A stretch of 64,000 bases of DNA from Perkinsus marinus ATCC 50983 (lineage: Eukaryota; Perkinsozoa; Perkinsida; Perkinsidae). The translations under genes and the position numbers were made by a program. Position 1 is the stretch's first letter; every line of letters begins with the position of its first letter. This document shows, one piece after another, positions 4,419 to 57,438 of the stretch. The stretch spans positions 129,755 through 193,754 of the forward strand of contig NW_003209596.1 of assembly GCF_000006405.1 (NCBI RefSeq), in the 5' to 3' direction. The notes under the pieces were generated by a model. The model had not been told where the DNA came from and made no database searches. It saw nothing but the letters and a program-made list of their open reading frames with translations.

Positions 4419-4423
4419 ATAAT

Positions 4424-24600: not shown

Positions 24601-26997
24601 GTGGCCGACACTGGGGCTTCTGGGACAGCTTCTGGCCTGCTAGCCTCGACAGTTGTCGTTGACGCCTCCTCCTGTACCGGCTCTGGCTGCTGCTGAGGAG
24701 GAGGGGGAGGAGTCACAGCGACCTTAGGCTTCCCGATAGCCCGACTGAACAGCTTCTTCCGCTCGAGGGTGACGGCTGAAGTCTCACCAAGATGGTTCGG
24801 ACCTTCCACGTGAGGAGCGACAGGCTCGTTGGCCGCTGCAGCAGTGCCACTAGTAGGAGCAGTAGAGACCTCCTTCTCAGTTGGTGACGTAACAGCTACT
24901 GTTGGAGACTTCTTAGCGATAGCCTTATTGAAAGCTAGTTTTCTTCCACCATACTGAGTACCCGACTTAGCCGCAGACGAACTACTGAGATCACCACTAG
25001 CCGGGGGCTGCTGAGGAGACGGCTCGGAGGGCATCGATGGTGGAGGAGGAGAGGACATCTCTACCTCCTCACTAGAGCTCGGCAGGCCCGGCTGAGGGTA
25101 CATGGGCATCATCATTCCAACACCCCCTTGGGGTGGCTGGGGATACATAGGCATTGCCGGCTGTTGTGGCTGCATCATCGGAGCACCATACTGAGGTCCA
25201 ACGTAGGAGGGAGGAGGCGTGCCATAAGGAGGCATACCACCATAAGGGCCTCCCATTGGGTACATAGGAGGGACACCACCAGCAGGAATGAAGCCCAGCT
25301 GTTGCTGCTGTTGTTGAACACCATGCTCAGCGTAGTCTTCACGCTGACCGTCCCTCTCCTGGGCCGAGGCCTCAGAGGGCCCTTCAGGTTTACCGGTAGA
25401 AGGAGGAGCTGCCTGCTGTTGCTTGGGATGCTTGGAATCGATAAGTGGCGGCTTGGTAGAGGACGGCAGTGGCTTCCGTAGGGCAGCATTGAGGAGCTTC
25501 TTCCTATCGTTCACCCCACGATAGTCATCATGATGGGAAGCCTCTCCCGAGGAAGTGCCAGATGAATGAGGCTGGACAGTCTCAAAGCCCTCGGCTGCAT
25601 CAGCCGAAGGGCCCGTCGGAGCCCCACCGGCAGCAACTGCCGCCTGGACTGGCCTCTGGCGAGACACTGGTCTCCCGGTAGTAGCCGCTGTAGTAGGACG
25701 AGTTTCACCAGTCTTCTCTTCCTCCACGACACCAGAGTCGACACGGGCCGCCGGCCTAGTCGTGGGGCCCGCAGGAACCGCCGCATTGTCCTCGCTGGTG
25801 ACAGGCTTGGAATCTTTAGTTGTACTAGTAGCAGGTTGGTCGACCAACTTCACCTCCTGACCAGTACTAGGGTCAATGATTGTCAACGGTTTCCGAGGGC
25901 GACCACCCGGGACCGAGGTTGCTGATCCTTCTCGTCGAGGTGGGCCAGGGAATGGGCGCGCGCCAGGGCCCATAGTGCTCCCTCGACTAGGAGGACCTCC
26001 ACTAGGAGTATTGCCACCACGAGAGGTAGCAGATTGTTGAATACTATTATCATTCAAATGTTGCGCTTGTTGTTGAAGATGCGACTCTTCACCACCCATA
26101 ATGCCAGAGGCAGTATCACTGGCATTCCCAATAGTCGCACCACTGTGGGGGGGTTGTTGCTGTTGGGGACCACTACCAGGCCGAGGCATCGGTGGTGCCG
26201 ACATAGGACCACCGGAATCCATAGGAGTACCATATGGCGGAGCCCCAGCATACATACCACCACCAGGATAACCACCTTGAAGATGCTGAGGTGGAGGAGG
26301 AGTCATCATGGCTGCTTGCATGGGATACTCCTGTCCAGGCATCCCATAAGGCATGCCCTGCATCGGTACATAGTAGGCTGCTGCACCACCAGGAGGGCCC
26401 ATACCAGGTGCCATCTGATAACCGTAACCGGCGGACATCATAGGTGGTGGGGGAGGCTGGGACGTGGGCCCACCGTAGGCCATATAGGGGGGCATGGCGG
26501 CGAAGCCATATCCCTGAAAACAATGACAGCTAATCACGCAGCAAGCATGGTTATTCATCAAGATGTGATTCCAAGAGTGAAATGGACGCCCTTCTAGAGT
26601 CTCCTTCCCGGGCGAATGTGATTTTCCAAATTTTCGAGCGCCGTGACCGATCGCAAAATTTCACCGATTTTCCTTGGCGCGAGAGCATTACCTGATGGAC
26701 GAATTGCTGAGGCATTCCCATTTCCTCCATCATATAACCACCACTAGGAGTATAATAACAACCTTGTGGCTGTTGTGGCTGTTGATAAGTAGCGTGAGGG
26801 GGAGGTGGGGGCGGTTGTTGCTGCATGCCTTGGTTCATAGATGCAGCAGCTCCCTTACCCTTCCCTTTACCAGGCCCATTAGGGCCCCATGGACCACGGT
26901 TGTTGCTATTGCTGGCCGGTCCTGTTCCACCACCCATATTGTTAGAAGATGATTGTTGTTGTTGCTGATTAAAGCTTGTATTTGCTGTTGTAGACAT
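21618..26997 (-). CDS. eIF4G-like translation initiation scaffold (MIF4G domain)
   Basis: Five exons join in phase: 26997-26692, 26513-24538, 24487-24217, 24162-23611 and 23558-21618, giving 1681 residues. All introns have GT-AG ends; three are 50-54 nt and the first is 178 nt. Residues 1-850 are low complexity, rich in Gly, Pro, Gln and Met, with repeated GG(Y)PG-like and poly-Gln stretches. From about residue 1000 comes the MIF4G fold (LHRLVMSNLNRITAENF, EGWKLELVVRTIFDKAI, INKPMTFTRALITKCQEEFE, GNMKFIGQLFLRQLL), the helical platform that binds eIF4A. A second helical region (about 1330-1600) may be an MA3-like domain. The role is assembling the cap/eIF4A/eIF3 complex in the cytoplasm. ATG 26997 follows no in-frame upstream ATG. 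Confidence 0.88.
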
Positions 26998-27689
26998 GGC
27001 ACCCCAACTGGGCAAGATCTAGACTCGTCAGTGACCGAAGTTGAGTGCTTTTCGGCGGGACGACGACTCAAAATCAAGCCCTGAAAACATCAGAATTATT
27101 ATCACCCGATCCCCGCTGCCTCCCATAGTAAACTCTATGATGAAATCAAACGAATTGAGTATTTCCTTGCTAGCGACTGCGACCAATTGCGCCCGAACTA
27201 AGCGGTCAGTTCTGAATCCTCCTCAAAAAAACCACGGAAATACCATTCAGTACGCCCTAAAGTAAGTCCCGACACGCTGGGGGACCGATGGGTGGCCACT
27301 TCCTATGCGATCCTACATGTGCACGTTCACACCGAACCGGCTTAAGGAACACAGCCCCTCGAATTCATCGATTGTCTGGGCGCGCGCTTCGTGCTGCGGT
27401 CCGAAAGAGATCAATTTGTCGTGCAAAGTGTTGAGACTTTCGAGCGGAGAAAAGTCCTATGGTCCCATCGTGGGGACCATCACGGCGCCCTGCCTCTCCC
27501 CCTTGTGGTCCGACTCTTCGAAGAAAACTGAACTATGTGCAATGCTTGTGAACTGAGCAATGCTGGTCATCTCGGGTGGGACGCGGTTGTCCTAAGGCTT
27601 TATCAGGATGAACCGTTTAGTCTATACTCGTGTACAGGAATCAGAGTTGACTGGCGAGACCCATGTTCAGAGGAGTTGCTGTTTTCACT
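26998..27689. other. Divergent intergenic region, eIF4G / RabGGTase beta
   Basis: This 0.7-kb spacer between head-to-head genes must hold both promoters. I see no convincing reading frame, repeat element or recognisable core promoter motif. Confidence 0.5.
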
Positions 27690-29035
27690 ATGACAGGGGG
27701 AAGTAGTCAGCCTCCACTACTCGTGGACAAACACGAGAAGTACATCTACGATCTCGATACACCAGACAAGTAGGAATGCTTCTGGCTGACCTAAAGAGGA
27801 ACTATTACCTTTATCAGGGCGCTCACCATGGACTTTGTATTGTCCGAGTCTATACGGATGGGGGGCGCGTAGGTTCGTTGTGAAGTGGACCCATCACTGT
27901 CTCGTGTGGAAGGTACTGGGGTATCACCGCTCTAGACGTGCTGGGTAAACTGGATGCCCAGAGTTACACTCGACGGGATGATGTCCTTAACTTTATCGAT
28001 TCCTGCAGGGGTCAGGATGGTGGTTACGGGTAGTGGAGGCCATGACTGGACACTTGAGGGTGAGGAGGAGTTCCCCGCAGGTTTTTCCCGGGTATGGATT
28101 CCCACATAAACTCAACACACTATGCACTACTGGTTCTGGCCGAGCTTGATGCGCTCGACACACTGTCCCCGGAGGAGCGCCTTGAAACGAGGCGTTTCGT
28201 CATCAGCATGCAGACCAGCGATGGTGGCTTTCAGGGCGATTACAGTGGGGAGGTGGATGGCCGTTTTTCTTACTCGGCTGTGGCCATCCTCTCGTTGCTG
28301 AATGCGGTGGGAGCTCCCGAAGGTAGATACCACTCCTCCTTCACTTCTGGATATAGTAGGCGTTGATTTCTCAGAGGCTGAGGACCAAGACATCGATCGT
28401 CAGAGAGCAGTTGCATGGCTACGCTCGTGCCAGAATTACGATGGGGCCTTTGGTTCAATCCCTGGGGCTGAGAGTCATGCCGCCTACACCTTCTGTGCTG
28501 TGGCCGCATTGGCGTTGCTGGGGGAAGAGGCTGATGAGATAGATAACTGGCGATTGGGACACTGGCTGGCCGAGAGGCAAATACCCAAGCATGGCGGCTT
28601 CAATGGTCGCCCTGAGAAGGTCTTGTCAGTTCGACTTGAAGGTGGTTGGGATCGTCTCGATCCTCAGGCTCCTGATGTCTGTTACTCATGGTGGATAACG
28701 TCCGCTCTGTCCGTGCTTGGCAAACTGCATTGGATAGATAGCGATGCTCTTACTGGGTTCATATTGCGGGCACAAGAGGAGGAGGATGGAGGTATAGCTG
28801 ACAGGTAGTAGTATCATTGATATTGAGTTAAGTTGCGAGAGGAGTGGTATGCAGACCTGGAGACGTGCCGGATGTCTTCCATACCTTCTTTGGTCTGGCC
28901 GGCCTGAGCCTTCTCGATACGAGCGGCTCATTCCATCTCCGGCCGGTGGACCCGGTCTGGGCCTTACCGCTGGACACAGTGCGTCGTCTTGGCCTTGCTA
29001 CGGGGAAGGGCCGTTCTGGCGGTACTTCAGCGTGA
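27690..29035 (+). CDS. Rab geranylgeranyltransferase (type II) beta subunit
   Basis: Six exons join in phase: 27690-27769, 27818-27868, 27913-28029, 28081-28322, 28375-28804 and 28855-29035 (introns 44-52 nt), giving 366 residues, close to the usual length of about 330. The repeated prenyltransferase alpha-alpha barrel motifs are clear: [51 protein letters not shown] and [12 protein letters not shown]. The zinc/substrate region PDVCYSWWI has the Cys ligand, followed by [13 protein letters not shown] with the His ligand. The GGFNGRPEK wording distinguishes RabGGTase from FTase or GGTase-I. It pairs with an alpha subunit and Rab escort protein to prenylate Rab C-termini. Confidence 0.92.
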
Positions 29036-29140
29036 TCAGTTTTACCGAGTTTTCTTGAATGCCAGATGGCTGTTGGGTTTAGTACTTACTAGAGGTGGTA
29101 GTGCTTGTTGTTGTAGTGGCAGTGGACTAACCTCGAGAGC

Positions 29141-32100
29141 ATGTCTTTAGCCGACTCCTTCTTGGCGGATTTGGACGACGTTCTGGTAAGGCAGGCATGA
29201 GTGTTTCGATATGAACCATTAGTCACATTTTAAAACCGAGTAGGAAAACATGCACATGGTCAACTACATGTGTTGGTGATAATGTTAGAATTCTGAGGAG
29301 GCTCTGGAAATCTTGTGGGCGCTTCCACTCCAATTTGTATGTAAACTTTTCAATCACCGAGTGAGCGAACGTATATTCCAACTCTGTTTTGAAATCAATA
29401 AGAACGCTTTTAAGAATAGCCTGTCGCTTCCCTATTGGGCATTGCCTTTGTTATCAGCACAATGTATATATGAATGGTTATGATCAGCATAGCTCGCGCC
29501 TTCTGCCTTGTTTGAGGCCTCTTATATCGACAGGGTTTTAAAGTGAACTGAGCGACATATGAAAATTACATGGTAAAGTTAATATGAAGGCTCGTGGCGA
29601 TAGGCAGTCGCTTTGTTATTTTATATTATGTCTGTTCTTAGAATGTTGTCTACGTATGTTTATTTTCTCCGAGCAACCTTGTGTTAGGACGCTCGGCCTG
29701 TTAATGAGGACACGGGAGACGATAAGAGTAAGGTTGCTGAGGCCCTTCAAGATGGAGAGGATGAGAAGGTGCCCTTGGGAGGTAATGCAACAGGCAAGAG
29801 GATTGGAAGGATGAGCGTTGTCAGAGGATGAGAAATTGGAAGACACGTCAGTTGGCGTGTCTCAACTGCTGGCTGATGAGGAGTTTCTGTCGACTATGCA
29901 GCGGATAAGGGACGCCTCGAGTGCGATGGAGAACGGGGAGGAGGATGAGGAAATGAAGGACAGCACTACGGCTAGTTCTGAGGTAGCGATATGATTATCG
30001 AATCGCTGTGGAATATTATCTAGATGACTCCGTCTACTACGGCTGGTACGGGGACAAAGAAGGCCGAGTATGAGCTGTTGTCAAAGTGCAACACAGTTGC
30101 TGTTACTATTGATGAGGATATCTACCATATCCATCGTTATGTTAAGAAGGTAGTGAAGACGTTAAACCACAGGTCTGTCCCGCCTCAATTGAGAATCTTA
30201 GAAGTGCTTTATGGTTGATTGTTTGCATTTCGTATATTCCTAAGTCGTTCATTTCTGTCATCGCAATGGTCGTATTAGCCCGCGGTGGCAGTAGGGTGTG
30301 TTTTGGTGAAGTTGTGATGGGTTTCATCATCAGGTGTACTCTAAGAAGTTTCCCGAGTTGGAGAGTATCGTGTCGATGCCGTTGGATTACCTCAGAGTCG
30401 TTCAAAGGCTCATCGAAAAGGAGGAGGCTGGTGTGTTCGGTAACGCTTCAGGTGAGGGACTAGGCGCCTTGTGGAGGGGAAGTAGGGCCTTCATCCCAGG
30501 TCCGAACGCTACACTAGATATGTCCAAAGTGGACCTCTCCGACCTGCTACCGAACAACGTTATTGTGGCTGTCACCGTTACAGCCACCTCCAGCGCTGGC
30601 AGTGGAGTTAGGCTGCCTGCTCGAGAGAACGACGAGTTGTTAGCCAACATCACTGCTGCTAACGACTTGGCTGACTGCAAGAACGACATTATGATTTTCC
30701 TACAGGTGAGGACGTTATTGTTGGGCACGCGGAGGGGAGGAGTCTTATTCGTCATTGCAGGGACAGATGGCTAAGCATGCCCCCAACCTGAATTCTCTTT
30801 TGGGGGCTCCTTTGGCCGCCAGGTTGATCTCAAGCGCTGGCGGTGTGGACAAACTGGCTATCATGCCTAGTCAGAACATCGAGCATGTTGGAGCGCAGAA
30901 GAAGCAGTTGAGTGGTAGGGCGGCCGGCGGGAGCTGATCGCAGTGTTGGAATATATGTTCGCTTCCTCAGCTGGCCTCAGGAGTTTCCTTACGTGCTGTA
31001 GAAATTTATATACGAATTTGATTAGAAGCGTACAGAAATTTCCTCAGAACATGTAGTTGACCATGTGCATATTTTCACACAGTGGCAGATAGTCTTTGCT
31101 TACACGAATGGCGTTTATGGTTGATTGAGTTTCATCAAGGTATGGGGGCATCGACTGCCGCGTCGGTGAAGCAAGGCCTGATCTGGCAAAGTGATATCGT
31201 TGTTATGACCCCGCCTGACTTCAAGCGGAAGGCTGTGAGGCTGTTGTTGGGCAAGTCGGCTATTTGTGCGAGGTAGGGAAGTTTTAGTATATGAGTTGGC
31301 TGAATGAGCTGATGTTGCTCAGTGTTGGAATATACGTTTGCTTTCTTCGGCTGAGTTGAAGAGCTCATTCATTTATTATGAAAGTTCACATACGAATTAG
31401 GGTAGAAGTGCCCAGAAACCTTTGTGAATTTCCCAAAATTTCCTCAGAATTTTCATATTGTTATCAACACATGTAGTCGAGTAAGTGCATATTTTTCTCT
31501 CAGGGTGGACAATTCCCTTCATATCAATGCGGGTAGTGCGGACGAATCAGCTCGACTGGGCAAGATTGGCGTTAAGCTGCGCGAAGATGTTCTGGCCTCC
31601 TTGGTAGAGCACTTGGGAATTGGCTCGTGGGCTCATTGTTGGTGTTCAGGGAAAAGCACAGGCGCCGCCTAAGGCGCGAGAGAAGAAGCCATTGCCGCGC
31701 CCGGATGAGCTGCCAGGCCCCAGGAGGGGAGGGAAGAGGCATAGGGCGATCAAGGAGAAGTATGGTATGAGTGAGGCTAGGAAGCAGGTTAATAGGATGA
31801 AGGTGAGGCCCTGGGTACACGGAGGCAAACCTTTTTTATGAGTATCCTCTGTGAGTACTATATTGAGTTTCAATGCCACCAGCTTGCTCGTGTGGAAAAC
31901 TCAAAAGCGCAACAAACAACAGTTATGGCCCCTCTGGATTTTCTCTATCTCCCTTGGGTCGGCCAAGGAAGGATTTGTCGATGATTTGTGGTTCAGTTTG
32001 GAGAGGAAGCTGAAGAAGAGTTGAACATGAACGAAGCGTTCGGGCGAGGGTTGGGCATGCTGTCGGCAGCGGCTCAAGGTGCTGGCCAAGGCCTTGAGGG

Positions 32101-32505
32101 TATCGGCCGTGTTGGGCAGGTGGGATGGCTGGTAACGGCAGAGGGGAGGATGGTAGTGTTTGTTGTTAGAGTGCGGCGAAGCAGGATAAGAAGCGGAGAC
32201 AGTTGATGGAGAGCATGTTGCACAATCAGAAGCTGAGTGCAACTAGAAGGCAGCGACTTGCTGCTAGCAGTGGCAATAGCGGCCTTTCTAGTAGCCTGGC
32301 TTTCACGCAGTTTGAGGTAGTTGTGTGGGGTATGGTATGTTGCTGGTACGCTCAGAGGGTTTAGGGTATCGAGCTGGCTGATCCGAATCGAACAGCAGAG
32401 AATCAGAACAAGAGGGCGGCGGCTATTGATGCCGCTCATAAGGCTGCTCAGAAGCAGGGCGCGGCTCAGGACTACTTCAATGAACTTACTGGCTTCAAGA
32501 AATAA
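29141..32505 (+). CDS. PRPF31: U4/U6 snRNP protein Prp31
   Basis: Opens with MSLADSFLADLDDVL (exon 1, 29141-29185), then exon 2 from 29688. Later exons give YSKKFPELESIVSMPLDYLR, the Nop domain (IVAVTVTATSS; AKHAPNLNSLLGAPLAARLI; LAIMPSQNIEHVGAQKKQLS; IWQSDIVVMTPPDFKRKAVR), a basic stretch (GGKRHRAIKEKYGMSEARKQ) and the C-terminal DYFNELTGFKK ending at TAA 32503-32505. The Nop domain binds the 15.5K-U4 snRNA complex and Prp31 bridges U4/U6 to U5 in the tri-snRNP. Three introns carry MITE-2 copies: 29186-29687, 30915-31139 and 31273-31503; the others are short. Confirmed joins keep phase. Confidence 0.92.
29232..29386. mobile_element. MITE-2 copy in Prp31 intron 1
   Basis: Left end AACATGCACATGGTCAACTA and right end CGAACGTATATTCCAACTCTG-like match the family in reverse orientation. 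It lies wholly in the 502-nt first intron. Confidence 0.65.
30941..31083. mobile_element. MITE-2 copy in a Prp31 intron
   Basis: The left terminus CAGTGTTGGAATATATG and right terminus CATATTTTCACACAGTG form an imperfect inverted repeat; about 143 bp inside a 225-nt intron (30915-31139). Confidence 0.75.
31320..31505. mobile_element. MITE-2 copy supplying a Prp31 3' splice site
   Basis: Begins CAGTGTTGGAATATACG and ends GTGCATATTTTTCTCTCAGGG. The terminal CTCTCAG, corresponding to CACACAG of other copies, is the acceptor of the intron 31273-31503, giving the in-phase join CAR-VDNSLHI. Confidence 0.7.
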
Positions 32506-32699
32506 GCTACTTTACGATTTCACCTTAGTCGTGTTGGGTTGTCAATGGGCACAGTCCTCAGAGTTGTTGGTGTCCATGAGAGCTCCTAAGGCGTGGTGGA
32601 TGGTCGCTGCATGGTGCGGTTGCGACGGAGAGAGTGCGGAGACGGTAATTTCGAAGGTAGTGGTATGGGAGGGGGGCGGCGAGCATTATAGTGGAGCAG

Positions 32700-35408
32700 A
32701 TGTCCCTCCTTGAGGAACAAGTAAGAATGTTCGATCCGGAGGTGGTCTCGGCTCTCATGGGGTCATCATTCATCGAGGTGAGTGGGAGGAATCTTTGTGC
32801 ATGCGTGCATGCCTGGTCGAGTGGGCAGGCTATTGAGGAGGAAGATCGAGATGCTGAGGCAGTACAGAAGCATCTCACTGAGGAGCGAGCTGCTGACTCG
32901 CACTTCCTCAAGTGGTTTGATGACTCTCATTACGAAGAACATAATCACGGACCGTTAAAGCGTAGGCGAGCCTTCAGAATTGATCAGTTTTGGGAGTATT
33001 CGTACACGTTTCGGTTGCAGTGCCAGGTGTCGTCGTTTTCTCAGCTTACCACCCCGAGGTTAAAATACGCCGGGCATTCGATCGGCTGAAGGAGTTCCTA
33101 GACATGGCCGGACAGGACATCTTTGGGAATCTTCGTCAACAGAATGCGATACTGGGAGAACAGTTCGCATCGTTGTTGGAGAGGACGGTCGGAGGTGGGC
33201 CCCTGTGGATTTTTGGTAGGGATGCTTTATAGCAGATAGCATGATAGAAGACCTGAAGGCTCTGATGGAGGTCTTTACTGCGGAGTTGGAGCTGCTAGAT
33301 AAGACTGCAAAGAACTACAAGACGGAGGCTGTAGGGAGGTGGTGTTGTAGGGGCGATGTGGTGATTCGGTGGTCTCAGCTGGCTCAAAGTGATAGGGGCG
33401 AGAAGCTGAAGGTGGAGAGTGTGAACATCGTTAAGGATGTATCGGACAAGTGGGACAAGCTGAGTAGGGCAGAGTTGGCGGAGTTATGGTATGGCGGTTA
33501 TAGGTGATGCCACAACGGAGGGGGAGGCCAGAGATATCCTTCGAGAGAACAGCGAGAAGGTTAAGACACACCTGGCCAATATCAAGTAGTAGAGGCTCGA
33601 GTTTAGAGGGGCGGGGACGGTCTGAGTTTTTTAGGGCAAGCCCGTTGATGACAGATGTCAAACCTGATTCGTGAGTCACTCTAGTGAGATCACCCTCGAG
33701 CGCCCCTTTTACTTTAGTAAGAAGGAGTTCTTCACTGAGATGGCAGGGGAGTTGATCGGACAGATGCGGTCCTATGTCCCTACTAGTGATAAGTAGTACT
33801 GCTCGAGAGAACAACGGGTATTACTCTAGACTTGCTGTGCCTCAGACGGGTCGAGGATCCCGACCATCTGGCTGACATTCAGTGGTCAGTTGGCACGCAC
33901 GGCTTCGCCTCTAGGGCTAACGACCTGCACGCCTTCATGGACCTGTTGGCCAAGTTGCATGGTGGGGCTTGGTTGCTGGTCTGCTGTGGAGGAATCGAAT
34001 GATGTCAGTGCTGTTGAAGGAAACAGCGGCGAAGATTCGCTTGGACACCTACGTGGGAAAAGGGGTCTACACCATGCCCTGGCCAAAGGGGAAAAGGGTG
34101 ATCCTGGTCTGGCCTGCTGTGAGTGGGACTGAGCTCTTGTTTAGGATGACCAGCAGGAAGAGGGCCGCATTAGAGCTCTCCTGGGGAAGTACCATTCAGT
34201 GTTGGGAACCAATGATCAGGATGTGAGTCAATGTCATGGTTGGCGGGGACGGTGTGATGCTTAGGAGTACTATGCGGAGAAGAAGAAGCGGTTGGAGCCG
34301 CTGCAGATGTTCTCGAGAAAGTATGGCACTCAGGGGAAGCTGATAGGAGGTGGAGGAGGAAAGCAGGATAGGGGTGTGGGAGGTGGCAGCTCCGCGAAGC
34401 ATGAGGAGGAAGGGGAGGAAACATCCTTCATTGAGGTGAAGAAAGGTCTTGATTTGGAGAAGCTCGTCCAGGAGGTCTCGAAGGACATGGTCAACTCGGA
34501 GGCTGCAGTGGTAGGTCAGCTGATGGTGGAGGGGAGCCGGTGGGGTGGCTGCGAGTGGCAGTTGGTTTCAGGCGGAAGCCGACGCGGAATTATCGAAGAA
34601 GGGTGGCACGAAGGTCTCTGTTGACGACGAGGAGGAGCGTAGCCGTGCTGAGCAGAAGGGCCGTGGAGAGCATGAGATTGGGGAACACCATGGAGGAGGA
34701 GAAGAGGAGGAGGAAGAGGAGCACGACACCATGGATGACGATGACCACGAGGAGGGTGGTGCAGATGGGAGGGACAGACACGAGGACGACCACCACCACA
34801 GTAGTGTTGCACCCGGGTCTGATGCTGCCCACAAGGCTGGAGATGGTGGGCATGGAAGTGGTGGCAATGATGACCATCATGTACACGAGCACGAGGATAT
34901 TGGAGGTGGGGATGGGTTACCGTTATGGATCTCAACGGAGCCACTGTCCATAGATCAGCAAGGCAGCGGTGAATACGACTATTTGGATGGCGTTAAGGAG
35001 CTTTTTGATGAAGACCAAGAGGGTGGGGACCGCTCTGGTGGGAGATGGGCACTTCGTAGGTTACTGTTAGGCAAGAAGGAAGGCTCTTCGAGCTTTGTGG
35101 AGAGGCGGGTTGAGGTGTCTGTTCATGGCGCACAGACGACGAAGACACCGAAACGGCCGACCAAGGCCTCTGGTAGCCTCCTACAGGCAGGCCCGGGTGG
35201 AGGTGACGATGAGGAGGAGATGGAGGAGGACGGCGGTGAGGAGGATATGGAGTTCGCGGGAGATGATGAGGAGGAGGAGGAACATGGCGCCGGTGATGGT
35301 GATGATGATGAAGAGGAGGGAGACCATGGTCATGCTGGTGATGATGGAGAGGGGACGACGAATCAGCAGCAGGGGGAGAGCGTGGATGGTCAGGGAGAAG
35401 AGGTATAG
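32700..35408 (+). CDS. Unrecognised multi-exon protein with very acidic C-terminal tail
   Basis: The first exon is 32700-32777 (MSLLEEQVRMFDPEVVSALM), joined in phase to 32829 (AIEEEDRDAEAVQKHL). Further coding blocks include VKIRRAFDRLKEFLDMAGQ (33060-33190), MIEDLKALMEVFTAELELLD (33241-33330), KVESVNIVKDVSDKWDKLS (33410-33480), LERPFYFSKKEFFTEMAGEL (33690-33760), TYVGKGVYTMPWPKGKRVIL (34045-34110) and a Lys/Gly-rich block (34270-34460). The last exon (about 34560-35408) is dominated by Asp, Glu, His and Gly, with runs of up to seven Glu. I cannot name a family. Helical, coiled-coil-prone segments and a histone-chaperone-like acidic tail are visible, but no function should be assumed. The 3' boundary could instead continue into the next gene. 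Confidence 0.5.
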
Positions 35409-35559
35409 AGGCTGCGCCCTAAGTCGCTAATCTCAAAATCATTAACCTCATTGTTGATTCGTTGGAGCTGAGATCTGGCGGTAGTGGACGACGTGTCCTT
35501 CTTAGGGTAACCATGCTCATTATGATGTAGAAGGACTAGACCAGGGAATAGGAGAAGGG

Positions 35560-38500
35560 GAAGCAGGCGATGTGGGTCTCAGCAGTACGGTAGAGTAACA
35601 ATCTGCTCTCCAGGGCAAGGCGGAGCTCCTAGACGTTCGGCTGACGATGGAAGGGTCCGTGCCAATGACAGTAGATGCTCTTAAGAAGAGTGAAGAGCAC
35701 CCCAAGGAGAATATGGAGGAACAGCAGGACGTAGGCTGAGCACCTGCCTTGAGCAACGGTCAGGAAGTGTCAGGTTTTGCTGGTGAAATATCAAGTGCTG
35801 GTATCAAGGATCGATGGGGCGATCAATGCTTTGAGGGCAACTGGCATGATCAGGGACTCACTGCTTGCCTTTGCTGATAGGATTGAGGAGTCTAGTAGTA
35901 ATCTGATTGAGAAGTGACGGAGGAGTGGTATGAGAATGAGTTTGAATTTGTGTGGTTTTATTAGAATGTGGCTGACAAATAAGAAGGAGGTGCGCCGTAT
36001 CATAGGCGACAAGGGAGTGTTGAAACTGGACGAGATCAATCCCTCTGGTACGTGGGCGCAGTCCATCGCGTCTCTCGCAGTGTTTCTGTAGAGTCTCGGA
36101 AGCACGTGGTGAATGCTTATGAGAAGCTGGTGAGGATGTACGTATTGATTGAGAAGGCTCGGGCCGCCTGGAAACTTGTTGGGCCTCAGTACAGCGAGTG
36201 GGGCTCCGAGGTGATGAGGTGTGCTAGAATATTTGTTCGCTGATCTCAACTGAGCTCGGGAGTTCATATACGAGTTCGGGTAGAAATGTACAAAACCAAT
36301 GAGAATTTCTCAAGAATTTCCTCTTAAGTATCATATTGTCACCGCACATGTAGTTGACCATGTTGCTGCTGCTGTTGGCAGTATGTAGAATGGTAGTAGG
36401 ATCGCGAAGCGGACGAGTCAGCATTGGGAGAGCCAGAGGCGGCATCAGCTGTGGGAGTACCTGGGATCGACGACTATCGTACGAGTAAACCCTACTCATC
36501 ACCTGAGAGTGAGTGAATTCTGCTAAGCTGCGTGGCTCTGCATTGAAGTGGTTGTTGTGGTAGGGTCTTCCAAGACGGCAGGGAATGTGTGGTACGTGAT
36601 GAGAGATCGGTACTTTGGGGAGAAACTGTGTCAGTGTCTGTTGGACACAGAACATGATGCTCTGATACACAACATACGCAAGGCCATGGAGGTTCCGGAG
36701 GATGTAGGCCGTAGCACGCAGATCTTGCCGATGCCCTGGAGTGAACTGCTGTATTGGAATATATGTTCGCTCTCCTCAGCTGAGCTCGGGAGTTTTCTCA
36801 CTAATTATAGGAGTTTATAGACGACATGAAGTAGAAGTGTATAAACACCAATGAAAAATTTCCTAAAATCCCCTCAGAATTTTTTTATTGTCACCGACAT
36901 ATGTGGTAGTGCTCGTGCAGGCCTGTGATCCGGCTACTATCTGGAGTGAAGGGCAGGTGATACCAGAGATCAACATCGAAGAGGAAGATCCGAATGATCA
37001 CGAGCTGCAAGGCAAGGTCACGCCAGAGTCGGAGGAGACAGATGTCTAGTATGTGGGCGCATGAACTCAGTGTTATTTCTAGATCAGCTGATGGTGTCTT
37101 GTTCGCGGGTGCTTGTGTCTGCGCAGTGCGAGGATTTTTCAATGGTTTACGGCAGTCCATCTACGGCCTCCTCTGCTGCTAGTAGCGATGGAGGGCAGGT
37201 CATGGAGGAGAGTGGTGAGCAGGTGAGCTGCCGTGAATGTGTAGGAGCAACTTGATGCAGATGAGAGAGACTCTACGATGACCATGTCATTGGGGCCTCC
37301 AACCAGTAGCGACTATCCCAGCGCCAACACCAGCTCGCTGGAAGAATCGTCCGTGGATGTTTCGAGTGTGAATATTGACGCGGTCTTGGCATCATCGAAC
37401 CAGGCAGTGACAGCTGCCAGGCCTTCCTCTACGTTTCGTGGCTACTCTGAAGAGGTGGTCAGGTGAGGAGCTACGTATAGTGTTAGTGTAGAAGATTGCT
37501 GTAGGGCTGAGCTCAGCTTGCGGGATGCGGCCATACAGGACTTGCAACGTGGTCTCTCTCTCAAGGCTACGGAGGTGATAATTTCGTGGCGCGTGACGCT
37601 TTCGGTCTCCAGCTCCTACGCAGGTGAAGCGTCTTGAGAATGAGCGCGACTCGTTGGTGGAGGAGCTCGGGAAGGAACGGGCTGCTAGGGAAAGAGCAGG
37701 GCGAATGGAAACCGAAGCTCAGCGGCAACTAGGAGAATTGAAATTAGATTATGGTAAACCGGAGTGACTGAGGCGAACGGTATTCGAACTGTTTTCAGAA
37801 ATGTCGCAAACCTCCCTGCAGGCCCGGGTCCAATCTTTGGCGGAGTCGTTGAGAGCCTCTGAAGAGAAGTGTGCTGAGCTGGAGGGTTACGGTATGCGGT
37901 ACAAGGCAGTTGAAGACGAAGTAAAGAGGCTTCGAAAAGAACTCGAGGTGCGGTATGGACAACGATGGAGGGAATTGTGATGGTGGTGTTGTAGGAAGCT
38001 CGAGAGGTCTCCTCAGCTTCGGCGGCCAGTCTGCATAAGCTCGCTGCGGAGATGAGCTCACAGGCTGAGACATTAGCCCAGGCTCAAGTGAGTGGAGGGA
38101 TTGCTGTGGGCATGTGGTTGTTGGTGTGAACCAAACCCTTTTGCGAAGTGATATTTTCAACACCTTCGAAAATCTACTTTGAGTAATGTCAACATGATAA
38201 CAACGTGAATCGATTAAAATCACTTCAGAAGCGTTCCGTAGTCTTTATTCGTACTCTCGCATGAGAAAGCCATCTTTAAAATCTAGATATGCATAACTGT
38301 TTGCTTCGCACTGTAGAGTGAGCGAGACCTGGCTCGTCGGGATCGAGATGCAATAGAAAGGCAGATGAAGCACTTGGAGATGGAGTGTGAGAGGAAAGAC
38401 AGGTCGCAGTGAAATTCGGAATAGCAGCTTTGTAAGGGATATGTGCCAGGGACTTGGAGGCTGCGGAGGCGAAGTTGAGCGTGGTGAAAGCCAGAAAAAG

Positions 38501-40641
38501 GGAGCTGGCTGCTGCGAACGAGAGGTGGGCTCTAAAAGGCACTATGGACGAGTCGTTGCTACTAGGGACAGTGCTACGACGGTTGCTGAGGCTCAGAGGA
38601 GGGTGGATGCCGAGATTGCGCGGCTGACTGAGAAGCAGGAGAGGGAGGTCAGTCAGATCAGTGTGGGGGAATATATGCACATGGTCAACTACATGTGTTG
38701 GCAAATTTTGGGAAATCATCGTTGGTTTTCGTAGACTTTTACCCAAAGTCCTGCGTGGATTTCCATAATGTAGCGAGGAAACTTACACGAGCTCAGTTGA
38801 GGAAACCAATCATATATTCCCACACGGGGTTAGGGAGTGACAGATCAAACTGGTCCTCCAGTTGTAGTGCAGGTTATAGCGGTCAAACAGCGGCTTGTGG
38901 AACTCCACTCTAGGGAGATCGAGGGGCTCAGGGTAGGGTGCATCGCGGCGTTGTATGTGTGAATCGGTGTGAACTGGGTAGGCTCAGCTGGGCATGGCTG
39001 AATCAGCTCGATTGCAAGCCTCGCGGAGAGCTGAGGAGTTGGAGGCAACTTGTGATGAGTTGAAGGTAGACAGTTTCTTTATGACGTATAGAGGAGGAGT
39101 TTGCAGGTTGCTCACGCTCGCTCTACTGCGGCTCTCCAGCGTGAGCTCGTTGAGGCTCAAGGCATGCTGCAGTTACAAGTGAGTGGATGGACATGGGACA
39201 AGATTAATATCCCCTCACTGGCAGAGGTTTGAGACGGAACGCGCGACCAATCTTGCCGAGGACCGAGCGGCTGTTGTGGAGGAGATGCAACAAGAGTGTA
39301 AAGTTCTGAGGAGCAAAGTTGAAGTAAGTGGAAAACTTCCCCAGCGGTAGCATATAAACTGTTGTCAGTTGTTGCGGACTGAACTGGACGAGGAGCGAAC
39401 GTCCAAAGTAAGGGAGCTGAGCTCAGTGCGAGGCGAGATCGCGGTGTTGCGGGAAAGGCTGAGCTCGTATGAAAAAATGGAGGAAGATATGACTATAGCA
39501 GTTCAAGCAGCTATCTCTCTGGAATCGACATGTGAAAGTGGCATGGTTGTTGTCAGTTTTGGTTAGGGGGAGATTGGCAGGCACACCGGGTGGTGACACG
39601 GGTGGAAACGACGCAGTGATTTCGGAGGTGTTGGGGTCGATCCCAGTGACTTCTCGCAGGAGGGTCAAGGAGAACCTCCTCCTCACGAGGCGCTTGCAGG
39701 ACCTCACGGCTCAGCTAACCAGTTACAAACAGAAATACGAAACGGCGTAATGACGCTAGTGATGATGACCCTGTCGTGCCCTTATTGTGCGATAGTTTAC
39801 GACATATTTCGTTCCTGTGTATTCGTATGGCAAATTTTACATTTTGTCATCAAAGGAGTTTTATCCTAGTGATGAGGAAAACACAAATGAAAATTATATT
39901 TGACAATTATTGCATACCACGAATATCGCGCTTTTCACTGAGTATTACGCCACTTGACGTAAAACGGGTGAAACTCCAATAAATAGTATGACTAAATATA
40001 TAGATGGAGTTTCACCCGTTTTACGTGAAGTGGCGTAGTACTCTGCGAAAAAGGCGATATTCGCGGTATGCAGTAGTCGTGAAATATGTTTTTCGCACTA
40101 GTGTTTTTCATACTATGGGTGAAATCCTAGTATTTTTTATTATTGCCTCAGGACTAGGGAGGCTGATGCTCTTCGAGAAGAACTGGAAGTGTCCACGAAA
40201 AGGCTAGGGGAAGCTTCTAGACCTCAACAATACATCGCCGAAAGTCTTAAGTATGGAGGGAATCACTCGCAGATGTTTCCTCATCCTGTGGACCTCAGAA
40301 ATCGAGATCTTGAGATTGCGAAGTATCGGGCACGGCTAGGCGAGGCGGAGGCGGAGGTGAGCTGCGATGTACCCAAACATTCCACATGGTTTCCTTCATA
40401 TGAGATATCGAAGTTACACAAGGAGCTCGAGGGCTCACGAGAGAAGATTGCCGAGGTGGAAGGGGATATACGTCGGTTACTGTCTCTGAGAAGCAAAGGA
40501 AGCCACAAGCACTCGATGAAAACCGCGCTGCCAGGGGGAGCTCGTTCGCTCGCCTCAACTATCGCCACATTGCGATCTACTTTGCCTGTGAATGTTCAAA
40601 ACAATTGTCCAGTGATACTGGAACCGTCGGGCATGCAGTAA
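35560..40641 (+). CDS. Long coiled-coil protein, many exons
   Basis: A chain of short plus-strand exons encodes almost uninterrupted heptad-like, charged sequence, for example AELLDVRLTMEGSVP (about 35620), HVVNAYEKLVRMYVLIEKAR (36105-36165), RLENERDSLVEELGKERAAR (37625), QARVQSLAESLRASEEKCAE (37812), EAQRRVDAEIARLTEKQERE (38588-38650), ELDEERTSKVRELSSVRGEI (39378) and READALREELEVSTKRLGEA (40153). It ends at TAA by 40641 after a Ser-rich tail. Introns with confirmed phase include 36219-36399, 38663-38872 and about 39748-40151; the last contains two MITE-1 copies. It resembles myosin-tail, golgin or centrosomal proteins in composition only. The start exon is not identified, and part of the 5' end may belong to the preceding gene. 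Confidence 0.55.
36217..36375. mobile_element. MITE-2 copy nearly coextensive with an intron
   Basis: Starts GGTGTGCTAGAATATTTG and ends near GTAGTTGACCATGTTGC. The intron 36219-36399 begins within the element's first bases (GTGTGC) and ends about 25 nt after it. The join after WGSEVM keeps the phase into IAKRTSQHWESQRRHQ. Confidence 0.65.
36748..36916. mobile_element. MITE-2 copy nearly coextensive with an intron (second example)
   Basis: Starts CTGTATTGGAATATATG and runs to CACCGACATATGTGGTAGTGC. A phase-consistent intron of 170 nt (36741-36910) covers almost exactly this element, and alternative splice sites also fall within about 10 bp of its ends. The flanking exons encode LPMPW and VQACDPATIWSEGQ. 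Confidence 0.65.
38659..38825. mobile_element. MITE-2 copy supplying a 5' splice site
   Basis: Inverted orientation. Left CAGTGTGGGGGAATATATG and right CATATATTCCCACAC are near-perfect inverted termini. The preceding exon (ending EREVSQIS at 38662) uses the GT in the element's fourth and fifth bases as donor; the acceptor at 38871-38872 is 47 nt past the element. Confidence 0.75.
39855..39977. mobile_element. MITE-1 copy 9
   Basis: Left terminus GGAGTTTTATCCTAGTGATG (diverged), right terminus CGGGTGAAACTCC. One of two copies in a single intron of the coiled-coil gene. Confidence 0.65.
40006..40127. mobile_element. MITE-1 copy 10, inverted relative to copy 9
   Basis: Starts GGAGTTTCACCCGTTTTACG and ends CTATGGGTGAAATCC. 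It lies 28 bp from copy 9 in the opposite orientation, so the two could fold into a long hairpin within the intron of about 404 nt (39748-40151). Confidence 0.7.
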
Positions 40642-46360: not shown

Positions 46361-49300
46361 TGTTGCCATCGGACGGAGCGATGCGCACAATACCACGAGC
46401 GAAGAAGAGGATGATTCCTAATATTGTGTGATGAGTATCCTTAGGCTATAACTGAGCTATGTAGCTTCGAGTGCTAGCTTGTAGCATAGGTTTGATTATA
46501 GATAAGTATAAGTTCTTGTCTTGTTCGGATCCAAGGATCTCTACTTGATTATCTGCTTCTACTACTAAGCTACCTTGGAGTTGGGTTATCACTTGGAAAC
46601 CTCTCTCTATCTCCAACAATCATCCGAGAATGAATTTCGAGACCGACGCCTTATCTGATACTATGATGGAATCTGAGCGTGCTCAGCGTAGACTTCGCCG
46701 TAATGAGGTTACTGAGCGTATGATCGCTCAGAGTCATGATTTTGTTTCGATTGGTGATGAAACTGATGTTGCTGGTGTTGGTGATGACCAGCTAGGTGTA
46801 GCTACTGTGGTGAATTCTGGTTTGACTGAAGCTGGTGAACGTGTTAGTGCTTCTAACCAGGATTATGTTTCTCATGCTCATAATCTTCCTGATCCTCCCC
46901 ACACCACTGACGATCCTTCAAGGGGTGACTCATCTGGCCGAGGTAGACCGGTGAATGGGCGGAATAATCAGCGTTTGCCACCTCGTGTTGCTCCTCGAGT
47001 TCCTCATTCTTCGAGAAACTCTCGTTTAGAGCCAGTGAACAGTAGCTTTGCGACTGATATTGGTATGGCTCAGGTTATTTCTACCTTGGTGTCTCAGGTT
47101 GGGACGCTTGCGACCACTGTACAAGGCCTATCTCCGATCACTATCAAGAATGGGTCATATGGGTCCTCTGCTGATGCGTTGGCTCGCAAGGAAGCAAGAG
47201 CAGAGCTAGCTGTTGCTCGTTTCCCGGTGTTTGTGGGAAACCATCGATATAAGGGTAGTGGCCCATGTTGTACTACCATCAGAGGTCATTTGGCATCGTT
47301 TGACCGCTTGCTTCGTATGAATTCTATAAAAGCTGGATCTCGAGTTTCGTATTTTATGCTGCTATATTCCCTGGATGATCCTGTCCGTGCCCGACTAGAT
47401 GCAGTAGTCGCTCAGTCGGGGTTATCGACGGAGTCGGTTGTTGAACCTGATGATGGTATTGACTTTGCAAACAAGTATTATTCGCTTCGTAAGTCCCTCT
47501 TATCCTGTTACTTAGACGCTATTGAGATCACGCGCCTTCGAAGAGAATGGCATAGTTTGGAGATGAAACCACAACAGCCCTTCTCCGAGTTCTCTGACCG
47601 GATTGACGAGTTGTGTGTTGGACTTTCACTGGTAGGCTCAACAGTGTCAACTGATGAGGTTTGGGATAAACTGATTACCCAATCTTGTTCTCCGTATGAT
47701 GATTTGGCTCTTATGTATAAATTACAAGGTACAAGTTTGATGTTGGCCCGTTCATATTTGGTATCTCGCGCTAAATTGGTACAACAGCGCTCACAGTCTG
47801 CTGGAGTGGCTTTAGAAGCTACTCGCATTCCCTTTGACTCTTTGGCGAGTGCTGCGGAAGATGTCTCGAAGTCTGGTGGTCATGGTGACTCGGTTAAGAG
47901 TGTTACTGGGAAGGTGAATTCTCGTTCTGTGAATCTTAAGCGCTTACCCACCAATGCCTGTAGACGATGTTTCCGGGAAGGTCATCTTGCTGATGCTTGT
48001 GATAGTGAGATGCCTACAGATATATCTCTCCGATGTCTTGGTTGTGGTTTTTATGGTCATAAATTGTCTGATTGTCGTATGGCTAAGTCGAGGAAGTTAT
48101 CGTGTAAGCGTTGCTCTGGTACTGGACATATGTCTTATATCTGCAGACAAGACCGAGTTGTTGAGTCCCAGGAAAGAAGATCTGCTGATCTCACTAAGAG
48201 TGAGGAGAAGGCTGTCCCCGCCGATGGAGATCAAGGTGGTAGTTCAAAGAAGAAGTCAGCCCTTCTCTCTGTAGTGGAACCTACTGCTCCTGCTGCAAGT
48301 TGGTTTTCGTTTTTGAATTGTACTACTGGTATTGAGGGATTGGATGACGGTCCTCATGATCCGTTGAAAGCTAACGTCTCACTGCGGTCATATGATGTTA
48401 ATGTGGGTGATTTAGAAGTGTCAGTTATGCTCGATACTGGAGCTGGTAGATCGTTTATCCACAAGTCTGTTCGTGATTCACTGAATTCTGTTTATATCCG
48501 TGAGACTCGTGCTATATCTGCATCAGCTACTTTGGCTGATTCAACTGTCATGCGGTTCACTGAGGCTATTCGTGTGACAATTGTGACTCCACAGCCATCT
48601 GGGGCTGAAGCTGGTGTTTGGCTTTTGGTATCTCCTGTGCTCAGCTGCAATATGATTTTGGGCATGAATGCTTTGCGAAGTTTGTCGCTTCTGGTATTCG
48701 TGAGCAGCGATGCAACACTACTGAGAGCCTCTCTGACTGAAGTTGATGTCCGCCGTGCTATTTCAGACAGTGCTACTCGTATAATGACTTGTCAGGATAA
48801 TCCTCCAGTTGAAGAGCAGCCTGTTGACTCGTCATCTTCTGGTTGTGCGAGTCCATTGCCTGACGACTCCTCACCTTCGTGTTGTGATTTTACGTCGCCG
48901 GACGACTGCGGAATGCCCGAGTTGCTTTATGACACACAGTTGTGCCGTATAGTTGATGGGCATGATGATGTAGAGGGGTTTAATAAGTTTGTATCTGCGA
49001 CGATGTTGAATTGGGGGAGCAAGAATACACAAGATGATCTTGAGCAGTCACCTGAGTGCAATCTTGCTACCTCTTCTCCTTCGCCTTCAGATGACCAGTC
49101 TCCTTGCACTCTGCCTCCGGTATTCGGTGATGTTGGTTATGGGCAATCTACTGTATTTGTTGGTCTTACACCAGATCGTCATGTTTGCTCTGATGGCAGT
49201 ACTAGAATGGCACTGCGTTATACTTATGATATTCCATGGTTATCTAATAAGAGATTGCCACGTCCCTTGAAAGAAGACTGGGCTCGTCTTTTCAAGAAGG

Positions 49301-50132
49301 ATGCTATGTTGGTACAGAAGCTCAAGAAGGAAGGACATTTTGATGCTTATGATAATGTCTTCCGTAAATATGAAGACCAAGGAGCTATGGTGGAGATTCC
49401 TATCAAATCTGATGATTTTGCTCAGATTGATGCTGTTATACCACATTTTCCGGTTTATGCTCCGAGTGCGGTGTCTACGAAGGTTCGTCCCGTCATCAAT
49501 GGTATTTATTATAGGGGTATCATCGGCAATGGTCGAGGAGATGAAGATCCGAAGGCTAATACTCTCCGTAGTACTATACCCTCTCTCACCGTGTTCCGTT
49601 GTTATGAGCACGTGTATTTGAGTGATTTGAAGATGGCCTTTTATCAGCTCGCTAATGCTCCAGCTGCTAAGTATGTTTTTTGCATTGTTTGGAACTCTCG
49701 TGTGTTTCGTCTGAGAGGTCCCGGTATGGGGGCCCCTCATGCACCATCTTGTTTGCAAGATGCGGTGTGTCGTCTAGGCAAACTTTCGGTTGCTAAATTG
49801 CCTATTCCCATTTCTAAGAAGCTCGAGTCGGAGAAGTTTGGTCGAAAATGTATCTGTTGGAAACCGTATATGGATGATGTTGTTCTTGGTGCTACTTCAC
49901 GTTCACTACTTGATGTAGCTCATACGGCTTTCACTTCTGCGTGTGATCGACGAGGTTTTCCCTTCCAGCCTGCTAAGGAAAGAGATCGGCCTCCAGCTGA
50001 GGGTGAGAGCTCTGTTAGTGTGTTGGGATATGGGTGGTATCCTCAGGATGTCCTGGGTCCACAACGAGCTTCTCAACAACTTCCTAGTAGAGGAATGTTG
50101 CCAGCTAACCCGACATACTGTCGGGGGGTAGT
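46361..50132 (+). mobile_element. Second retroelement E1, 3'-truncated, embedded in E2's left end
   Basis: Starts at the break in the E2 LTR with TGTTGCCATCGG; a TGTTG...CAACA interval (46361-46617) ahead of the frame could be its own LTR, but no second copy is seen to prove it. It contains the gag-PR-RT frame 46630 onward. RNase H and integrase are missing; the sequence changes to the inverted E2 LTR fragment at 50133. Confidence 0.6.
46630..50131 (+). CDS. E1 gag-protease-reverse transcriptase polyprotein (incomplete)
   Basis: One open frame, ending 1238 residues downstream at 50346 after crossing the element junction. Gag-like helical region (about 190-400, with LRREWHSLEMKPQQPFSEF), three consecutive CCHC/CCHC-like zinc knuckles near 445-510 (CRRCFREGHLADAC, CLGCGFYGHKLSDC, CKRCSGTGHMSYIC), an aspartic protease motif LDTGAG near 602, then reverse transcriptase with VRPVINGIYY, YLSDLKMAFYQL and an intact YMDDVV catalytic box near 1080. 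The order and the missing RNase H/integrase show truncation. The lineage is unclear: the RT wording is not typical Ty3, and Bel/Pao or a divergent clade is possible. Codon use is AT-richer at third positions than in the E2 frame. Confidence 0.78.
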
Positions 50133-50182
50133 TGTCACTCCTAGATCCATAAATAGTATCTTGCTGAGTCATCACGACAATG
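50133..50182 (+). repeat. Inverted 50-bp E2 LTR fragment
   Basis: TGTCACTCCTAGATCC...GACAATG here is the reverse complement of 55765-55814 with one mismatch, so it points opposite to the E2 LTRs. It marks a rearrangement joint between E1 and the 3' end of E2. Confidence 0.88.
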
Positions 50183-50186
50183 TCTA

Positions 50187-53100
50187 TCACTGTATATATC
50201 CTCTCTGGCTGAGCAGCTCTATCGATTCGGAGCTGAGCTTGCCATCCGGTTCGAGGAAAGTACCAGAAGTTGAGAACTTCACTTCGGACTTAGAAACCGT
50301 AACCAGCCTTCTTTCACGCGGCTGTCTACGGAACCAGAACAGATGAGTAGGGGACGCATACGGTTCAACCTTGACCTTGTCACGCAGAGGCTCAGACACG
50401 ACTCTACCAACATCAAGAGACTTTACCTGGCCGTCAAGTTCCTCGACTTCGAACATAATCATCATGTCTGGAGTGAGAGAGTTAAACTCGACCTTCATGG
50501 CCTGGTGGTCTTCTCCCGCGACGTCAGAATAGCAGGGATCAGGGCAATAGGGGACGCACTGTCCACGGCTGACAGGATCTTCCTCACCACGCAGGTAGAC
50601 GAGGGAGCCATCGACGTTTCCAATACGGAAGGGGCCTAGGGCCACCCGGCCACCATAACCACGTAGCTGGACAACAAAAACCAAATCGCCCTCGTGCAGG
50701 TCGTTGCCGTAAGAGCCAGAGCGCCACTTCTCGGCGCGCGAGATAGCAGCAGCTCGGCTGCGATCTCTAGATCTTCGTTTCTGCTCAACGATGATGTTCA
50801 GCATGTTCTCGATCTTCTCCGGATCCGCCGGACCCGGATCATTATCACCGTAGACAACTTCAAGTAAGGTTTTAGGCTTCTTTCCTGTAACAATCTCATA
50901 AGGACAATAGCCACATCCATCTGCAGCAGAAGAATTATGGAGCAGTCGGGCAGCTGCGACGAGAGCCTTCAGCTGGACCGCACCGGTAATGACCTCGCCA
51001 GAACGACGAATGACATACTTAATCTCCTTTACCGCAGCCTCAGCGATACCGTTCCCTCTCGGCCAATACGGAGGTGATAATGTCCTCGTCACTTGATGAC
51101 GTTCAAAGAGAGATTTCACAGTCGCCGAGCAGAAGCCTGCATCATTGTCATGGGTGATCGAATCAAACCACCCCCATCGGCTTACCCAAACATCGTAAAG
51201 GGCCAAGGCAGTCGACTGAGCAGACTTGTCATCGACCACGCACGCTTCAAGCCAGCCTGTCACCTTATCAACGACAACCAAGACATAGAGACCATTGAAG
51301 GGTCCCAAGTGATCCATAGCGACCGAGGAGAACCTTCTGGCCTCAACCGGGATAGTGGAGAAAAGGTCATACCGCGGGCTGGCAGCAGCGGCACGCGCAG
51401 CGTGTCTGGCGCACCCAACGCAAGTGCTGCAGTAGGCGTCGATGTCAGGGCTCATCTTGGGCCACCAGACTGTGCTCATCATGGCGCGGAGCATCCTTTC
51501 AGGGGAAGCATGGCCATCACCATGCGCTGCTTCCAAGGCTTGCGAGCGATCTCCTTCTGGGACATAAGTTCGGATCCCGCCCTTGGAGTCTTGGTAGACC
51601 CAGTCCGGATCAACTCTCCGTACTCGATTAGAATTAACGAGACCGATAAGCTCAGGAGGTACATCTTCCTCAAGTCTTTGACCCGCAACAGGGAGCACGG
51701 CCACGCCATCGTCAGTTGAAAGGCTGTCGTTCATGAGAGCCTCGTCGTCTTCCTCAGAGCACAGTGAGCTATTGTCGAAGTTATCAGACACCAATACAGC
51801 TGTTGTACTGTACACCCCCATAGTGTCAGTATCAGCCTCGGCGAGAACTCTCGAAAACATATCCGATAGGCAGTTCTCAGAGCCACGACAGTGAAATATT
51901 CTGACGAATGGGAGCACATCAACAACGCTCTCGACCCATCGACACCAGCGTTTATACCGGACTTGATTACGGGTGAACTCGGAGTAGTCAGGGACAGCCT
52001 GAACTTTGTGAATGGCAACTGCACTGTCGGAGTGAACAACGACAGGCGCTCGTCTCCCGCTTTTGGTAGGGATTAGCAGCAGCACCCTCGCTCTGCGGAG
52101 ACCCTCTACCAGGGCGAGACCTTCACAGTCAAAGGTTGCATAACGTTTTTCATGCCCACGGAGACGACGGCTGCCGACCATAAGCACAGCACCATGTTCA
52201 GCCAAAATGTCCGGCGTCGGGCCAGAGTACTCAGAGTTTAGATCACCCATATCCGAGAGTGCGCCTGGGCACTCACCGAAACGTACTCTCCACAATACAT
52301 AGGATATCCCACAGTCGCTGGCATCTGTCTGCAACACAAAGCCTTCGCCCTCCTCGAGCTCAGAGTCGATCGGTTGAAAAGCGAAGACATGCTGCCGCAA
52401 GGCCGATCTCAGCCAATCAAAGGCAGCATCATGCAGGTCGGTCCATTTGTAGGGCTTATTCTTCCCGAGAATATCTTGTAAGGGAGCAAGATTCACTTGT
52501 AACTCACCTTGACCATAAGCCGCTCTTAGGTAGTTGATAGTCCCCAACAATGACTGTAGCTGCTGCCTATTGAGAGGTCTAGGGAGTGACTCCAGAGCCG
52601 CCACAGCCGCTGGCTCCGGTTGCCACCCATTGGATGACAGTCTCATTCCGAGAAAGCCGATGATGTCGGTAGGAGGTTGAGTTTTCTCAGGGCTGATGGG
52701 AATATGGTAGTCCGCCAGACGCTTACAGATAATCTCGAGAACAGCTCTCGTAGTTTCTACAGAACAGCCGCATATCAATATATGGTCGACAAAGGTCAGA
52801 ACGACAACTCGTCCCTTGAACTTATCGAGCTCAGATATACCAGATAGGATCCAGTGTATTTGACGACTCCACCAATATGGAGCCGTGCACAGGCCTTGCG
52901 TAAGAACCTTCCACCGGAAGGTATGGTATCCCAAGGTAGCGCCTAGAAGCTCAGAAGACTGCGGAGACACTCGTACCGTGTAGAAGGCATCCTTCACATC
53001 CAACGAAGCAAAGGAGGTAGCCCAACGAGGAATCTGAGCTAGTAAGTGCTCAGTATGGGCCTCATCGGGGAAGCAATAAACCGGTAGACGTTTGTTGACA

Positions 53101-57180: not shown

Positions 57181-57438
57181 CACTCATTTTATTCGTCCTC
57201 GTTCCTATCACGCGGACTGTCACATTTTCAGTCATTGTTGATAACAGACAGACACAATCTCACAGAAGGGGTCGTGGATGTAATCGTTTGACAATATTTC
57301 ATTTACTTAACTCACTTGTGATTGTTACAACCAGGAGAACGGCATCGTTTTTTTATGCTGGTCTCCCTCATTTTCTCCTATCGACGACCGCATACATTGG
57401 TTTGTTCCATCTACAGAGGATTGTGTTCGCGGGATCAT

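Follow-up and report, generated by a model that had tools for sequence, protein, structure and literature searches.

A stretch of 64,000 nucleotides (nt) of Perkinsus marinus ATCC 50983 (contig NW_003209596.1, positions 129,755 to 193,754 of the forward strand; hereafter the window) raises the question of whether a short repeat family, MITE-2, makes introns or enlarges introns that were already there. Copies of this miniature inverted-repeat transposable element (MITE) lie in three introns of a coiled-coil gene and in two introns of Prp31, and an earlier note on the sequence had proposed that the element brings usable splice sites with it and so creates or enlarges introns, in the manner of introners. 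The enlargement is supported and the introner-like gain is not. We consider it very probable that MITE-2 landed in pre-existing introns and enlarged them, the predicted splice sites lying mostly outside the element, because the donor is outside the element in all 20 clean copies analysed, the part of the intron that is not element has a normal length, and element-free paralogues keep the intron at each of the three sites where one was found.

Splice sites, intron length and element-free paralogues

MITE-2 copies were located with nhmmer and assigned to introns by our own gene finder, a two-strand hidden Markov model trained on the fetched DNA after MITE-2 had been masked. The fetched loci (labelled L) are those that came first by exact match with the left terminus of the element and are not a random sample. 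The gene model learned donors of the form G|GTRRG, with C rare after GT (0.01), and acceptors of the form YAG|G. The 616 comparison introns without MITE-2, some of which come from haplotype copies, have a median length of about 50.5-51 nt and a 5% quantile of 33 nt. Outside tandem arrays, 139 MITE-2 matches were found in the fetched loci. Of these, 33 are intronic and 106 lie beyond the predicted genes; none is in an exon, although exons occupy 116.5 of the 301.7 kb, but little weight is given to this zero because the gene model can hardly call MITE-2 sequence exonic. For the count of splice-site distances, 54 intron-assigned matches were reduced to 33 by the removal of 21 that were haplotype copies (L009, L010, L038) or rows of tandem arrays. 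Discarding seven truncated copies gave 26 full-length ones, and setting aside six more with a model splice site inside the element gave the 20 clean copies.

These 20 copies, 11 in sense and 9 in antisense orientation, lie in predicted introns in which no donor (0/20) and two acceptors (2/20) fall within 5 bp of MITE-2, which speaks against the expectation that element ends would coincide with splice sites; none has both splice sites within 8 bp of the element (0/20). The residual length, that is, intron minus element, has a median of 63.5 nt versus 50.5 nt for the 616 comparison introns (Mann-Whitney p 0.98). An in-frame stop, read in the frame of the exon, is present in a flank between exon and element in 13 of the 20 copies. 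Homology gives gapless joins for importin alpha (L041), where the element is 17 bp away on each side, and for HisRS (L047). For the gene at 2.2-3.8 kb of L022, the alignment with solved HPF1 is too loose at the join to serve as a check.

The joined flanks of 30 MITE-2 sites were then searched against the genome, a second copy being defined by at least 85% identity on both flanks. An element-free paralogue spans three of the 30 sites, and in all three the intron is kept at the same position: the L016 site is matched by C71 and C251, with a 39-nt intron each, the L047 site by C253 (63 nt) and the L039 site by C267 (120 nt). No MITE-2 match was found in these four paralogous stretches. The L015/L016 pair, in which L015 has a partial MITE-2 copy, was counted separately. 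This search with joined flanks revealed no intronless site among the 30. The earlier note had named introns at the same positions in element-free relatives as evidence that would refute it; at these three positions the paralogues have just such introns, and Prp31 of P. olseni, described below, is consistent with the same picture.

Introns of the coiled-coil and Prp31 genes

The P. olseni proteins used as references for the window are themselves gene predictions: P0004 (FOZ61_008900), P0002 (FOZ61_008899) and P0003 (FOZ60_014422). Judged by these homologues, the introns of the coiled-coil gene, all on the plus strand, are 36211-36399, 36704-36920 and 38648-38872, the donor of the third being preferred rather than certain. 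MITE-2 accounts for 72-79% of their length, in agreement with the earlier observation that the element forms most of each. Their starts had been placed inside the left terminus of a copy or within about 10 bp of it; measured against P. olseni, the three donors precede the first MITE-2 base by 8, 45 and 13 bp, and the third copy is inverted. If these corrected ends hold, the terminal sequence CAGTGTTGG, put forward as a ready donor, contains none of the three.

Removal of the first intron (189 nt) produces the join GSE|DRE, gapless against P0004, and a donor at 36219, as previously proposed, shifts the frame. The copy within it (36219..36363, plus strand; match 36221-36363, model positions 3-167, E 6.7e-27) has an extrapolated start and a right terminus that is lost or degenerate; the part of this intron that is not MITE-2 measures 18 nt with a copy counted as complete and 44 nt with one that has lost its right end. 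For the second intron (217 nt), the join EVPED|ACDPATIWSEG corresponds to EVSED|VCHPATIWSEG of P0004. The gene model alone gives the same exon end (36703) and acceptor (36920), with a spurious exon between them at 36780-36830. The MITE-2 copy occupies 36749..36919 on the plus strand (match 36751-36919, model 3-170, E 1.8e-37), again with an extrapolated start and a lost or degenerate right terminus. An intron at 36741-36910, the original proposal, runs into a stop, and 36741-36909 is open and adds residues absent from P0004. An exonic insertion at 36741, with the flanks joining in frame at a weak target repeat (6 of 8), was also considered and rejected, because the flank upstream of the element is intronic to judge from the P. 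olseni protein.

The third intron (225 nt) gives a gapless join against P0002 and P0003, and the gene model agrees. Its copy lies on the minus strand (38661..38827; match 38825-38663, model 3-183, E 7.5e-29; both ends extrapolated), so that the right terminus, and not the left, faces the donor. The donor formerly placed at 38663 is in frame and adds 15 bases, or five codons, that are absent from P0002 and P0003. It keeps some standing because the preferred donor at 38648 is of the GTC type that is rare here.

The gene model recovered a complete Prp31, with the Nop and Prp31_C domains. A prenyltransferase gene (PF00432, E 2.3e-87) is located directly upstream, at 27663-29197 of the window, and the model fused the two genes in C76. 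One Prp31 intron with MITE-2, absent from the earlier note, runs from 30915 to 31139 on the plus strand (225 nt), and its join KKQLSG|MGAS is found in P. olseni P0001 and in human Prp31. The copy (30941..31084, plus strand; match 30941-31083, E 7.8e-33) begins 26 bp after the donor and ends 55 bp before the acceptor, and 73 nt are left besides the element and the target duplication. The P0001 contig is 561 bp long, of which 432 are coding bases, so that 129 remain for all introns. Because these 129 bases are fewer than the 225 nt of the P. marinus intron, P. olseni would lack MITE-2 at this site if the P0001 contig is genomic, which we infer from a protein that begins at a predicted exon start; if the contig is a transcript, the argument falls.

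The other Prp31 intron (31273..31503, plus strand, 231 nt) has a join, ICAR|VDN, that fits human Prp31 and a donor 47 bp before the element (31320..31503, plus strand; match 31320-31497, model 1-178, E 9.2e-47). As had been noticed earlier, its acceptor at 31503 is an AG in the right-end region of the copy. The flanks, TTGCTCAG on the left and TCTCTCAG on the right, resemble copies of one target, which suggests that the element inserted at a pre-existing 3′ splice site; MITE-2 itself also starts with CAG.

C76 represents a second haplotype of window positions 22206-37581 (95.6%) and 48341-53489 (98.9%), and both haplotypes carry the four MITE-2 introns within the C76-matched stretch. Opposite about 37.6-48.3 kb of the window, C76 contains 9.2 kb of N (C76:130344-139549; L010, L011), so that the haplotype comparison excludes the copy at 38.6 kb.

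Probable enlargement of existing introns and other readings

The order of events and actual splicing are things we infer. MITE-2, presumably mobilised in trans by a hAT transposase, would insert with an 8-bp target duplication into introns of about 50 nt, where insertions would be tolerated. The introns would thereby have reached their present 183-362 nt (median 228), and their splicing would still use sites that lie mostly beyond the element. If the target coincides with a 3′ splice site, the duplicated target would carry a second AG and the element would be absorbed into the intron; this route appears clearest in L044 and may apply at 31503 and at L022:3001.

Several observations weigh against enlargement of existing introns. 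The six full-length copies, out of 26, with a model splice site inside the element (L022:172, L035:1431, L035:3001, L044:3001, L051:3001 and window:36749) were all left out of the 20; window:36749 was decided by the P. olseni protein and L044 by eye against a near copy in C142. At L022:172 and L035:3001 the model donor is 3-4 bp inside MITE-2. The L035:3001 donor is 4 bp inside and its acceptor is inside too, a case that looks by eye like an insertion at an acceptor. For the donor L022:175 (CAA|GTGAGG), which lies in the element terminus, the gene model and the public P. marinus RING-finger protein P0005 agree, and the acceptor is 137 bp past the element. In the truncated copy L026:3481 both model splice sites are within 5 bp of the extrapolated ends, with about 40 nt on the donor side outside the MITE-2 match. 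Three residuals (18, 26 and 29 nt) are shorter than 33 nt, the 5% quantile given above. Finally, a near-identical second copy exists for 12 of the 30 searched sites, with no empty allele among them, so that no MITE-2 insertion was caught in a polymorphic state. In these second copies the element was recognised by spacing, and its sequence itself was seen only in C76 (for the window sites), in C69 (for L038) and in C142.

Part of this evidence could also be read to mean that insertion into existing introns is the rule and that, in a minority of cases, MITE-2 or its target duplication supplies one splice site, usually the acceptor. We regard such capture as possible, if somewhat doubtful. The acceptor is within 8 bp of an element end in 4 of the 20 clean copies and the donor in one; the acceptors at 31503 and 36920 fit human Prp31 and the P. 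olseni protein, respectively; the L044 acceptor is within the duplicated target GTTTCAGA; and the L022:175 donor points the same way. However, 4/20 and 1/20 are small numbers, roughly those that random positions in 50-nt introns would be expected to give, and at 31503 and 36920 an AG from the element, from the target duplication and from the old intron cannot be told apart. A bolder version, which we find improbable, would make MITE-2 an incipient introner, with copies that are mostly passengers, a minority with a captured site (acceptors 31503, 36920 and L044, supplied by the right terminus or by the duplicated target; donor L022:175, supplied by a terminus) and possibly two true exonic insertions, 36211-36399 and L026:3481. 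If true, a single family would display the transition from a passive passenger of introns to a maker of them.

Less probable still is that MITE-2 is an introner outright, that is, that exonic insertions made the introns de novo, with splice sites taken from the termini or the target duplication and shifted by later drift. The termini do contain a GT (CA|GT) on both sides, only 18 nt of the intron 36211-36399 belong to neither element nor target duplication if the copy is taken as complete, the L022:175 donor lies within a terminus, and the copies are old enough (median identity to the consensus 86%, n = 70) for splice sites to have drifted. According to the main text of Gozashti et al. (2022; PMC9860276), similarity between introners must reach near both splice sites, and similarity confined to the interior indicates a secondary insertion of a transposable element. 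Applied as similarity reaching to within 5 exonic or 10 intronic bases on both sides, this rule is passed by 0/20 clean copies, 0/26 full-length copies and 1/33 when truncated copies are included, the single case being L026:3481, on extrapolated ends. The normal residual lengths and the intron retained in paralogues at 3/3 sites likewise argue against an exonic origin. In an end-to-end screen of 646 introns on the same strand, no pair linked MITE-2 introns of unrelated genes; of the 38 similar pairs, 27 connect copies of duplicated genes and the other 11 fall in the tandem arrays of L032/L033. Within the window, tandem gene copies at 1612-9631 (three) and 55998-59452 (two) have introns that are 84-100% alike.

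That the gene models are wrong and no introns exist there is scarcely credible: the gene finder is home-made and splits six of the 26 full-length copies, but both Prp31 joins match human Prp31, the importin-alpha and HisRS joins are gapless, the coiled-coil joins agree with P. olseni, and P0005 is identical to the L022 gene model (100% over all 146 residues).

The MITE-2 family and known systems

A 185-bp consensus of MITE-2 was built from 32 of 43 aligned copies. It starts with CAGTGTTGGAATATATG and ends with GCATATTTTCCCACACTG, which form an imperfect inverted repeat; the short inverted termini beginning with CAGTG are CAGTGTTGGAATATATG and, on the other strand, CAGTGTGGGAAAATATG. Identity between the two flanks is maximal at 8 bp (0.403 versus 0.268 in shuffled flanks; 63 copies, some of them haplotype duplicates), which reveals an 8-bp target duplication. 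Such a duplication is a trait of hAT elements. The pattern of the left terminus, with up to two mismatches, has 428 + 380 = 808 matches genome-wide and its reversed control none, so that the matches are not due to chance. From these features MITE-2 is most likely a non-autonomous, hAT-type MITE family of P. marinus, and the earlier description of it as hAT-like is borne out by the inverted CAGTG termini and the 8-bp duplication. A hAT dimerisation domain was detected above the cut-off at 14 places, for example C25:229346, some of them in open reading frames of 725-850 amino acids (control, 0 of 14 genomes). To judge from the domain matches, these places are candidate sources of the MITE-2 transposase.

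In its structure MITE-2 does not differ from the general class of intronic MITEs of the hAT superfamily, with which it shares small size, lack of coding capacity, CAGTG inverted termini, an 8-bp duplication, many copies and both intronic and intergenic locations. With the introners described in the main text of Gozashti et al. (2022) it has in common a non-autonomous DNA transposon structure, inverted termini, a target duplication and an intronic position. Unlike them, none of its 26 full-length copies comes near both splice sites with its similarity, which fits the secondary insertions distinguished in that text; Perkinsus is not named there. A further parallel is offered by the introner elements of Amoebophrya (Farhat et al., 2021; PMC7789003), which are likewise intron-associated in a myzozoan parasite and have MITE-like inverted repeats. 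The Amoebophrya repeats overlap non-canonical exon-intron borders, whereas the introns here have GT-AG ends that for the most part lie beyond MITE-2. In the literature searched, the MITE-2 family was not found, and Perkinsus appeared together with introners or MITEs only in the Amoebophrya paper. The MITE-2 copies in introns are most likely ordinary nested MITEs, the family being new and its kind known.

With this analysis, what was likely a false positive drops out of the candidates for intron gain, and the intron ends of the coiled-coil gene are corrected. It also illustrates how a secondary MITE insertion can mimic an introner if the limits of the intron are guessed from those of the element. 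As a large family that makes the very short Perkinsus introns longer, MITE-2 provides a usable background against which real introners can be judged.

Other repeats accompany MITE-2. Tandem arrays with 59-bp units at L033:788-1177 and L032:5240-5781 match the first 53-55 bp of the element and appear to be a small satellite that arose by amplification of its left end. At 39889-40094 of the window, a pair of 90-nt arms, 26 nt apart and 86% complementary, forms an inverted repeat that probably represents another MITE-like family. A long open reading frame at 46630-49668, which matches zinc-knuckle and aspartyl-protease domains weakly and in both cases below the Pfam cut-offs, is probably a retroelement.

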